Source: Sulfuricella denitrificans skB26 (lineage in GTDB: Bacteria; Pseudomonadota; Gammaproteobacteria; Burkholderiales; Sulfuricellaceae). Taken from it: a stretch of 64,000 nucleotides of DNA. How positions within the stretch are numbered: the stretch's first letter is position 1; every line of letters starts with the position of its first letter. The notes beneath the pieces are model-generated. The model saw only the letters and a program-made list of their open reading frames with translations. It did no database searches and was not told the origin of the DNA. Location: positions 2,367,501 through 2,431,500 of the forward strand of contig NC_022357.1 in NCBI RefSeq assembly GCF_000297055.2. The letters are read 5' to 3'. Positions 8,144-36,593 of the stretch are shown here, in pieces. The position numbers and the translations under genes were made by a program.

Positions 8144-8150
8144 AACACTA

Positions 8151-8418
8151 AGGGCTCGTTAATGAATAAGTTGGACATACGCTGGGGCTGGTTGGGGTGC
8201 AGTCCTAGGCGCGAGACGCGCGGTTGTGTCATTCACAACAAGCGGATCGCAACACCGGAATGCACCCCAACCAGCCCCAGCCAGAAGGGTTGCCGCGTAT
8301 TCGGGCGTCTGCGGCGTTGCAAGGCTTGCGAATGGAACAACCATTCGCCGCGCCTCGCGCCTTGCATCCATCCCGAATATGCGACAACGTATGACCAACT
8401 TATTCATTAACGAGCCCT
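8151..8418. repeat. Large structured palindromic repeat, copy A
   Basis: A 268 bp imperfect palindrome. Outer arms AGGGCTCGTTAATGAATAAG(TTGG) at 8151-8174 match 8395-8418 perfectly (24 bp), with more pairing inward. A second arm pair, 8182-8201 with 8261-8280, is perfect over 20 bp and encloses a small hairpin GTTGTG-tcatt-CACAAC (8223-8239). A third arm pair, 8290-8305 with 8372-8387, encloses a core hairpin GCGAATGG-aacaa-CCATTCGC (8328-8348). Copy B at 27635-27904 has the same five-stem layout with different stem sequences. The spurious ORFs on both strands here are by-products of the palindrome. Confidence 0.9.
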
Positions 8419-8429
8419 AAGGAACAGCA

Positions 8430-27634: not shown

Positions 27635-27904
27635 AGGGCGTGTTAACATTAATTTCGCGTCTGCGACGGGGGCGATTTGGGATGCAGCCCGCGAAGCAAG
27701 ACGCGCAGTGGTGCAAGCCACCACAAGCGGCTTGCGACAAAGGGGGGCGCCCAAATCGCCCCCGTCCCGAAGGGTTGTTGCGAGAAATGCGCGTCTGCGT
27801 TGTTGCAAAGCTTGCGAATGGAGCAACCATTCGCCGCGCCTCGCGCCTAGCATCCATCGCTTTCTCGCAACAACGCAGGCGTGAAATTAATGTTAACACG
27901 CCCT
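27635..27904. repeat. Large structured palindromic repeat, copy B
   Basis: 270 bp. Outer arms AGGGCGTGTTAACATTAATT(TC) at 27635-27656 pair perfectly with 27883-27904. Second arms 27666-27681 and 27750-27765 (16 bp, perfect) enclose GTGGTG-caagc-CACCAC (27708-27724). Third arms 27774-27787 and 27861-27874 (14 bp, perfect) enclose the core hairpin GCGAATGG-agcaa-CCATTCGC (27814-27834). The core region is nearly identical to copy A, while the arm sequences differ but remain self-complementary. It fills the whole gap between greB and the upstream gene, overlapping the latter's TAG. Confidence 0.9.
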
Positions 27905-31349: not shown

Positions 31350-31463
31350 CTCTCTGGTGTTTGGATTCAAGTTTTTTGCACTATCGGTTTCGCCGTTTGC
31401 AGTCTTGGAATTCAGGCATTTTCGCGGGATTTCCCGTTTTTTTATTAGCAAGGGACTACGTAA

Positions 31464-31667
31464 ATGGCAACTGGTACTGTAAAATGGTTTAACGATTCCA
31501 AGGGTTTCGGCTTCATCACTCCGGACGACGGCAGCGAAGATCTGTTCGCGCACTTCTCCGCGATTCAGATGGGCGGATTCAAAACCTTGAAAGAAGGTCA
31601 AAAGGTGCAGTTTGAAATCACCCAAGGCCCCAAGGGTAAGCAAGCTTCCAACATCCAAGCCGCCTAA
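31464..31667 (+). CDS. Cold-shock protein (CspA family)
   Basis: 67 residues with both RNA-binding motifs, KGFGFI (RNP1) and DLFAHFS (RNP2), and the usual opening [11 protein letters not shown]. It is an RNA chaperone that melts mRNA secondary structure in the cytoplasm. The leader is long and A/T-rich and a strong terminator follows, so the gene is monocistronic. Whether it is cold-induced cannot be told from sequence. Confidence 0.95.
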
Positions 31668-31687
31668 GTATTAGCGCTTGAATGCTA

Positions 31688-31718
31688 CGCCCCGGAGCCA
31701 CGGCTCCGGGGCGTTTTT
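31688..31718 (+). terminator. Rho-independent terminator of the cold-shock gene
   Basis: CGCCCCGGAGCC-ac-GGCTCCGGGGCG followed by TTTTT. A 12 bp stem, 20 bp after the stop. Confidence 0.93.
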
Positions 31719-32831: not shown

Positions 32832-32972
32832 TTGGGATAAACCTATAAACGGCAGTTAACCGCTTCACTATGCATTTAATACAATGATTATAAATAATTT
32901 CTTTATTAGCTCCGCGTTCACCTGCTTAGTGAGTACGCTACGAGGCGAATTGCACAATTATTTGAACACGTG

Positions 32973-33035
32973 ACTGCGTTATAACTTCTTGGAATGGAAC
33001 GACCATTCCGCGTCGTTATGCCTTGCCCTGTATCC
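32973..33035. repeat. Degenerate core of the palindromic repeat family (copy C)
   Basis: CTGCGTT...GGAATGG-aacga-CCATTCC...GCCTTGCCC...TATCC aligns by eye with the core of copies A and B (CTGCG..GTTGC..GCGAATGG-RRCAA-CCATTCGC..GCGCCT.GCATCC). Only the core hairpin is clear; the outer arms are not. It lies in the divergent region between perM and purM. Confidence 0.55.
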
Positions 33036-33116
33036 AAAAAATCGCACACTTCGCCCCGTCCAACTGCTGTTTCTAGGTTAAAATACCACAATTTACAAAT
33101 TTACGCGGAGCCTCCC

Positions 33117-35523: not shown

Positions 35524-36507
35524 ATGCCGGATCGGGTAAAAATACTTCTTTGGGTACTGGGGCTTTCCCTGGCGGTGCACCTCGCCTTGTTGTTGGGCCC
35601 GCATTTCTCCCTGCCCGTCAACCTGGCTCCCGCTCCAGTTCTGGAAGCCAGGCTCAGCCCACCTCCGCCTCCATCAGCGAGGCTGACGAAGCCCAAGCCG
35701 CCGCGTGCCACTCAACCCAAACCCAACCCCGTGAAAAAAACCTCCACTCCGCCCGTGGAAGCTGCGCCCGCACCCGAGGTCCAACCCCATACTACCGCAC
35801 CACCACTCGCCGAAACGCCGCCTGCCGTGGAGCCCGAACCGGCCGTTCCCGATTCACCCACCATGCCGCAGCGGGTAACGACACGATTCACCGTATTCAA
35901 GGGGCTGAACGGCATCCGTGTGGGTCGTGCCGAGCAGGTATGGAAGCTCGACGGAGAACGCTATACAATTTCCAGCATAGCTGAAGCCAGCGGCCTGTTC
36001 TCTCTGTTTGCTACTGGCAAGTTCGTCCAGGAAAGCCAGGGGGAAATCTCGCCGGCCGGGCTGAAACCCTCGAACTACCGTGTGGAACGAGGAAAGGGCG
36101 GCGCGGACAAGACCGATACCGCCCAGTTCGACTGGAATGCCATGACACTCACCCTCGCCAGCGGAGGCAGCAAACAGACACTGAAACTGCCGGAAGGAAC
36201 CCAGGATCTGTTAAGCTTCATGTATCAACTCGCCTTCGCACCGCCACAGAGCAGCGCAGTTAAATTACAGATGACCAATGGCAGAAAACTCGACAGCTAT
36301 ACTTACTGGGTCGTGGAAGAAGCGCTGGAAACCCCGATGGGGGTGCTGAATACCCTGCACCTCGGCAAGCAGCGCGAAGAAGGTGAAAAAGATACCGAAG
36401 TCTGGCTAGCCGCCGACTACCATTACCTGCCGGTCAAAATCAGCCAGATCGATAAGGATGGCGATGGGCTGGTGCTGCTGGCGAACGAAATCGAATTGAC
36501 TAAGTGA
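35524..36507 (+). CDS. DUF3108 protein with TonB-like proline-rich N-terminus, paralogue 2
   Basis: 327 residues. An uncleaved N-terminal transmembrane helix (about 8-30) is followed by a Pro-rich, Lys/Glu-rich segment (about 45-115, PPPPP, PKPP, PKPNPVKK, PEPAVP) of the kind that spans the periplasm in TonB and TolA. The C-terminal DUF3108 domain (about 120-327) has FTVFKGLNGIRVGRAEQVW and MYQLAFAPPQSSAVK. It may present the same domain near the outer membrane that paralogue 1 provides in soluble form. Confidence 0.83.
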   Translation: MPDRVKILLWVLGLSLAVHLALLLGPHFSLPVNLAPAPVLEARLSPPPPPSARLTKPKPPRATQPKPNPVKKTSTPPVEAAPAPEVQPHTTAPPLAETPPAVEPEPAVPDSPTMPQRVTTRFTVFKGLNGIRVGRAEQVWKLDGERYTISSIAEASGLFSLFATGKFVQESQGEISPAGLKPSNYRVERGKGGADKTDTAQFDWNAMTLTLASGGSKQTLKLPEGTQDLLSFMYQLAFAPPQSSAVKLQMTNGRKLDSYTYWVVEEALETPMGVLNTLHLGKQREEGEKDTEVWLAADYHYLPVKISQIDKDGDGLVLLANEIELTK

Positions 36508-36510
36508 GGA

Positions 36511-36593
36511 GTTAGGGGTGAGGGGTGAGGCGAAAAAACAAAAGCCGCACCATCGCGGGTTTTCCGCCTCACCCCTCACGCCTCACCCCTAAC
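36511..36593. repeat. GT-rich inverted repeat (TAGGGGTGAGG family)
   Basis: GTTAGGGGTGAGGGGTGAGG(CG) at 36511-36532 is complementary to 36565-36593, the right arm carrying one extra 7 bp unit. The loop is about 32 nt. It sits between the DUF3108 gene and rsmB. It resembles dispersed REP-like repeats and may act as a terminator without T-tail. Confidence 0.75.

Follow-up and report, generated by a model that had tools for sequence, protein, structure and literature searches.

The structured repeats A and B, together with a decayed third copy starting at position 32841, are best read as members of a superfamily of short, non-autonomous, MITE-like DNA transposons. All three lie in a 64,000-nucleotide stretch of the Sulfuricella denitrificans skB26 genome, referred to below as the window. 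These elements insert precisely with a short target duplication, and they combine matching ends with a constant plan consisting of either one bulged hairpin unit (termed U) or two such units, inverted and back to back, approximately 107 nt apart. The stems of U turn over by paired changes and its bulges are mostly kept. The role of the hairpins is a matter that we infer: we put at about even chances the reading that they are maintained as a folded single-stranded DNA signal for the mobility of elements mobilized in trans.

Elements A, B and a third copy

An earlier note on this DNA had described A and B as repeats sharing a layout of five stems, with arms that differ between the two copies and are complementary within each. 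Both repeats were present (with slightly refined bounds, 8152–8417 and 27636–27903), and the paired change cited as an example, GTTGTG/CACAAC in A versus GTGGTG/CACCAC in B, was confirmed in the letters. The proposed layout needs one correction: the two inner structures are each a long hairpin interrupted by conserved bulges, and they are inverted copies of one unit. The features of the three elements are listed here, with bit scores from R1, a covariance model of U built from 13 sequences and containing 14 pairs.

8152–8417: element A, double-U type, 266 nt; site empty in L320, L321 and L322; one of nine A-type elements
8149–8151 and 8418–8420: left and right copies of the target duplication TAA of A
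8152–8181, plus strand: left terminal inverted repeat of A, 30 nt, pairing with 8388–8417 at 29 of 30 positions
8388–8417, minus strand: right terminal inverted repeat of A
8195–8266, minus strand: left U of A, 83.5 bits; outer arms 8182–8201 and 8261–8280, inner hairpin 8223–8239
8281–8289: linker between the U units of A, CCAGAAGGG
8303–8374, plus strand: right U of A, 80.2 bits; outer arms 8290–8304 and 8373–8387, inner hairpin 8328–8348
27636–27903: element B, double-U type, 268 nt, flanked by TA on either side and situated between two reading frames of the minus strand
27680–27751, minus strand: left U of B, 62.6 bits
27767–27774: linker of B, CCGAAGGG
27789–27860, plus strand: right U of B, 69.3 bits
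32841–33078, plus strand: third element, decayed, single-U type C, 238 nt; U at 32965–33035
32838–32840 and 33079–33081: TAA flanks of the type C copy

The site of A is empty in three relatives (L320, L321 and L322) that carry the same gene pair, and reading across the junction gives the TAA duplication, which can also be read as CTAAG (5 bp) when the target is taken to include the G/C pair at the very ends of the element. Two additional relatives (L325 and L326) likewise have no element at this junction; in L323, L324 and L327 it is occupied by other sequence, which in the first two (genomes G005 and G009) includes a palindrome-like repeat of another kind, GGCCTGTCAGCCACGGAT.... An empty site for B with a clean junction alignment was observed in L336 and L338 only and corresponds to a TA duplication, readable as well as TTAG/CTAG (4 bp with one mismatch), with one G/C pair ambiguous; L340, L341 and L342 also carry no B, but are more diverged at the junction. 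The 30-nt terminal arms of B match at 28 of 30 positions.

Both elements fold far better as single-stranded DNA than their shuffled counterparts (z of −15.8 for A and −13.5 for B, with 0 of 200 shuffles as good in either case). The longest stop-free stretches within A, B and the type C copy comprise 85, 89 and 52 codons, respectively (reading-frame lengths only). No transposase lies inside, as the earlier note had also observed, and its description of a dispersed non-autonomous element with arms that change in pairs is borne out.

The only Rfam match above its gathering score in the window is the cspA thermoregulator at 31399–31717 (plus strand; 82.5 bits versus a gathering score of 78); none was found at A or B, and the region of A fell below all cut-offs. 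The window also contains a further imperfect palindrome at 36504–36593, with GGGGTGAGG-type repeats and 34-nt arms that are 85% complementary.

A bulged hairpin unit shared across genomes

BLAST searches of the host genome (3.2 Mb in two contigs, 99.99% complete) returned two more A-type copies (93–94%), one more B-type copy (95%) and pieces of others. The R1 model identified 23 U units in 16 elements in the same genome (E ≤ 0.5) and more in relatives, so that the refuting condition named in the earlier note, a lack of further copies, does not apply. A plain sequence search thus detects only near copies (for A, its own-genome kin), whereas the covariance model detects elements widely, since almost nothing apart from the fold is conserved. 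At E ≤ 1e-4, R1 matched all 22 family genomes searched (the host included) and 5 of 19 other genomes of the order; at E ≤ 1e-5, it matched 39 genomes in a class-wide sample of 274, again including the host.

Scanning of named genomes with a degenerate pattern yielded at least 118 stretches; hits outside Proteobacteria were taken at face value as regards contamination. Record titles among the matches listed include Acidovorax, Variovorax, Thiobacillus, Nitrosomonas halophila, Methylobacillus, Microbulbifer and Pseudomonas. Most of these loci were also recognized by R1: 77 of the first 80 scored at E ≤ 0.01, and 37 of 43 (the remaining pattern loci plus five other loci) at E ≤ 0.001. A virus collection gave four pattern matches, two of which (L331 and L333) score as U and two of which, judged by reading, look like chance. 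An element from a virus-collection contig matched one plasmid record and no phage record, a Variovorax element had partial matches to two plasmid records, and A had no match among plasmid records.

The plan of the elements is constant across lineages, with an end repeat, a U, a short linker, an inverted U and a second end repeat; U also occurs singly in some elements, with other ends. The spacing of divergent U pairs was 106–109 nt in 35 of 40 cases (on 174 of 203 matches). The nine A-type elements, A included, are 264–267 nt long, and seven of nine aligned copies have the linker CCCGAAGGG (A itself has CCAGAAGGG). The stretch shared around U measured 119–308 nt in 12 genomes (two to five copies compared in each), which is too short for a transposase gene. 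The ends vary widely, from GGGCTCGTTAATG in A, GGGCGTGTTAACA in B and TCCTAGAAACC in type C to CTAG-flanked TGTCCCTTAACAG, TACTCTTTCAAGG, AACCTATCTCA and others in other genomes. That U is common to elements with such unrelated ends, and has recurring bulges of its own, led us to reject the possibility, raised in the earlier note, that the repeats are simply what is left of a single insertion sequence with ordinary inverted ends.

Type C elements are especially uniform. Among 24 of them (from 27 loci, three with no ends found being omitted), 19 are exactly 238 nt long, and 19 are flanked on both sides by an identical 3-bp TNA. Other loci depart from this plan: L090 combines an A-type end with one U of another type, L089 consists of A-type ends without a U (a perfect palindrome of 46 nt, flanked on each side by TAA), and L028 is a U-free palindrome built from B-type ends alone. 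L089 and L028 may be either deletion products or empty relatives. In the recently active genome G065, 33 end matches within three mismatches (versus three for a control pattern) fall into two main end types. Elements of one type share about 90% overall identity with those of the other, and each of the seven copies with both ends assembled has the same end type on its left and right. At the start of contig 11 of that genome (L306), the right U is broken by an extra hairpin-rich stretch.

The claim that the arms had undergone compensatory change was supported by the alignment of the nine A-type elements, in which column identity averages 94% and 97.3% of cells are paired. Of 96 pairs, 11 have changed on both sides, amounting to 22 cells; shuffles averaged 6.3 such cells, and slid partners gave no more than 2; four of the 11 paired changes fall in the terminal repeats. 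Within U, covariation scores for three alignments (A2, A3 and A5, with 92, 111 and 51 matches) were 0.593, 0.571 and 0.556, compared to 0.152, 0.133 and 0.140 after shuffling and at most 0.107 after sliding, controls that guard against the leaning of these alignments toward the model structure to which they were fitted. The count of further pair types in A2 and A3 was no greater than in shuffles (106 and 371 of 500 shuffles, respectively, reached it), and we therefore place weight on the score and on the cells changed on both sides.

The bulges behave differently from the stems. In the 89 distinct sequences of A2 (a set selected independently of these letters, found mostly by R1, but including its 13 training sequences), the 5′-side GTTGC was present in 70 and the 3′-side GCGCCTWG in 65; a CTT preceded the inner hairpin in 77, and all three motifs occurred together in 53. 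The corresponding counts for the 248 sequences of all three sets were 212, 197, 218 and 174, although A3 and most of A5 had been pre-selected by a pattern that fixes core letters belonging to two of the motifs. Read on the other strand, the conserved stretches form a hairpin whose bulges are fixed, TGC-AA-GGCG ... CAA-CGCC-GCA.

The probable folding strand

A strand whose hairpin is under selection for its fold should tolerate G.T (or G.U) mismatches but not A.C, so that an excess of one over the other would indicate which strand is folded. On the strand that was modelled, A.C exceeded G.T in each of the three sets (40:6, 57:9 and, for loci unused before, 29:5). Counted by sequence, A.C was the more frequent in 103 and G.T in 11, with 134 ties; restricted to well-paired positions, the count by sequence was 31:7 in favor of A.C (p = 1.2e-4, a value that serves as a guide only, given the kinship among sequences). 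Covariance models favor G.U, yet an excess of A.C was seen.

The outer arms were examined in a model-free alignment, which took in 87 of the 92 matches of one set and 87 of the 111 of another; 148 had scored arms and 19 had none, the rest being duplicates or too near an end. The arms contained 134 A.C and 36 G.T mismatches, with more A.C in 61, more G.T in 22 and ties in 65. However, 66 of the 134 A.C cells belong to single-U loci that were assigned to type C by end motif, a crude criterion, and that have inherited mismatches in common; removal of the C-labelled loci left 68 A.C and 29 G.T. The polarity of type C rests on a few inherited, non-independent positions, and the outer arms of double elements from the host's own family had no such bias (8 G.T and 5 A.C).

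The strong excess of A.C on the modelled strand makes its complement the likelier folding strand, which in double elements would correspond to the U adjoining the 5′ end of each strand. The mismatch pattern points to a single folding strand and would fit DNA or RNA equally, which leaves room for the earlier note's alternative of a regulatory RNA or DNA structure.

Mobilization, alternative explanations and known systems

The mechanism that we favor would involve a transposase that works in trans on the element ends. Each U would be recognized in folded, single-stranded form and with a fixed polarity (5′-TGC-AA-GGCG...hairpin...CAA-CGCC-GCA-3′), probably while exposed as single-stranded DNA during replication or transposition, by a protein that would recognize the bulges and not the stem sequence. 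Such recognition of shape would leave arms and ends free to drift, provided that both sides change together. The existence of U-free palindromes with the same ends suggests that U may be dispensable for mobility, unless they are deletion products.

The same hairpins might instead act as RNA, with a transcribed U altering RNA stability, termination or translation and so softening the effect of an insertion, an explanation that we regard as possible but doubtful. The transcript would originate from the host operon or from a promoter in the element, and the inverted pair would place one U in the right sense either way. A single strand that looks folded is what G.U-paired RNA would produce, A and B both sit between reading frames pointing one way, and type C copies are found near stop/start junctions, with an ATG formed in some of them (see below). 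Against this, wobble pairs make up only about 3–4% of cells on the presumed folding strand, and the Rfam search gave no family above cut-off at A or B. Furthermore, type C elements are co-oriented with the frame starting at their right end in 10 cases and opposed to it in 3 (11 of 24 being ambiguous), so that the strand present in mRNA is mostly the one lacking wobble pairs. This argues mildly against a function in mRNA, and for folded DNA or antisense RNA. A separate explanation, which we consider improbable, is quasi-palindrome correction, in which replication copies one arm from the other and generates paired changes without selection on the fold. It would account for the terminal repeats also changing in concert, including the replacement of both ends in G065 (a matched replacement that either shape recognition or arm-to-arm copying would permit), and for the U-free perfect palindromes. 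Correction should, however, erase mismatched bulges, whereas the bulges show recurring motifs throughout the class; the U–U spacing is nearly fixed, and the observed polarity linked to U orientation is not predicted by it.

The mover proposed in the earlier note, a RAYT/REP-type enzyme, was not supported for A and B, and we judge it very unlikely that they are REPIN-like elements moved by a RAYT/Y1 transposase. The host genome (G000), in spite of its 99.99% completeness, gave 0 matches to Y1_Tnp (PF01797). GTAG/CTAC is absent from A and B (the type C copy contains one), and the elements have short target duplications and long terminal repeats (20–30 nt) that to our knowledge are not REP features. 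The resemblance lies in inverted hairpins with conserved bulges, of which one defined strand folds. Y1_Tnp was present in all 15 of the other U-bearing genomes examined versus 8 of 16 U-free genomes, which leaves room for a past RAYT-like role, and the E. coli enzyme TnpAREP is described as recognizing a single-stranded hairpin with a conserved bulge in a strand-specific manner (PMC8266576).

Searches for a partner transposon were directed at the ends. No transposase with A-type ends was seen in 22 genomes using the exact end pattern, and none with C-type ends in two genomes, a result based on the paired ends, which lie 238–316 nt apart (four further ends in G014 are unpaired). A longer element with the G065 ends was not seen in that one genome, where 13 contig ends all read inside a short element and none inside a longer one. 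The host genome contains one DDE_Tnp_1 match.

The elements resemble MITEs in being short and gene-less, with terminal inverted repeats, target duplications and several dispersed copies; they differ in that U is shared by elements with unrelated-looking ends across many bacterial families, and in that these searches showed no partner transposon sharing their ends. We take certain ends (GGGCCTGTTCA.. / GAACCTGTTTA..) and the TNA, TA or CTAG flanks to resemble those of IS5-type insertion sequences, a likeness that is confined to the ends and that several of them, such as TCCTAGAAACC, do not obviously fit. Integron attC sites are recombination sites that are likewise specified not by sequence but by a strand that folds and leaves certain bases unpaired, and their signature is a pair of RYYYAAC / GTTRRRY boxes. 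A contains one GTTRRRY and no RYYYAAC, B contains neither, and the type C copy contains one RYYYAAC only; A and B thus have no box pair, and they differ further in their terminal repeats and target duplications. Readings as attC or as IHF sites were set aside, as the elements do not match the respective motifs. So was a presumed likeness to primosome sites of AAGCGG in the left U of A, a motif that is not conserved. QMITE2 of Coxiella burnetii is a MITE that similarly carries an inner palindrome, and it is set apart by the description of that palindrome as a GTAG-type REP (PMC10969869). A full-text literature search, assessed by titles and the starts of abstracts, found no description of elements such as those reported here, which is weak evidence given that subscription papers were mostly outside its reach.

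A broader proposal, which we think unlikely but worth stating, is that these sequences represent a class of transposable elements recognized by shape, in which a protein shared among hosts would read a strand-polar, bulged, single-stranded DNA hairpin while ends and arms turn over in pairs, so that one system would have spread through much of Gammaproteobacteria under unrelated-looking sequences. The elements offer a natural data set on structure-based recognition of mobile DNA, for which the systems investigated to date are REPs, IS200/IS605 and integron attC sites. They also raise the puzzle of which enzyme lies behind elements with such diverse ends.

Some type C copies also supply a start codon on landing in the stop/start junction of an operon. 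In five of 24 (L042, L048, L070, L073 and L216), inserted at TGA, the terminal A of the element and the TGA duplication together form the ATG of an open frame. Several of these type C ends have GAGG or AAGG about 8 nt upstream, resembling a ribosome-binding site.
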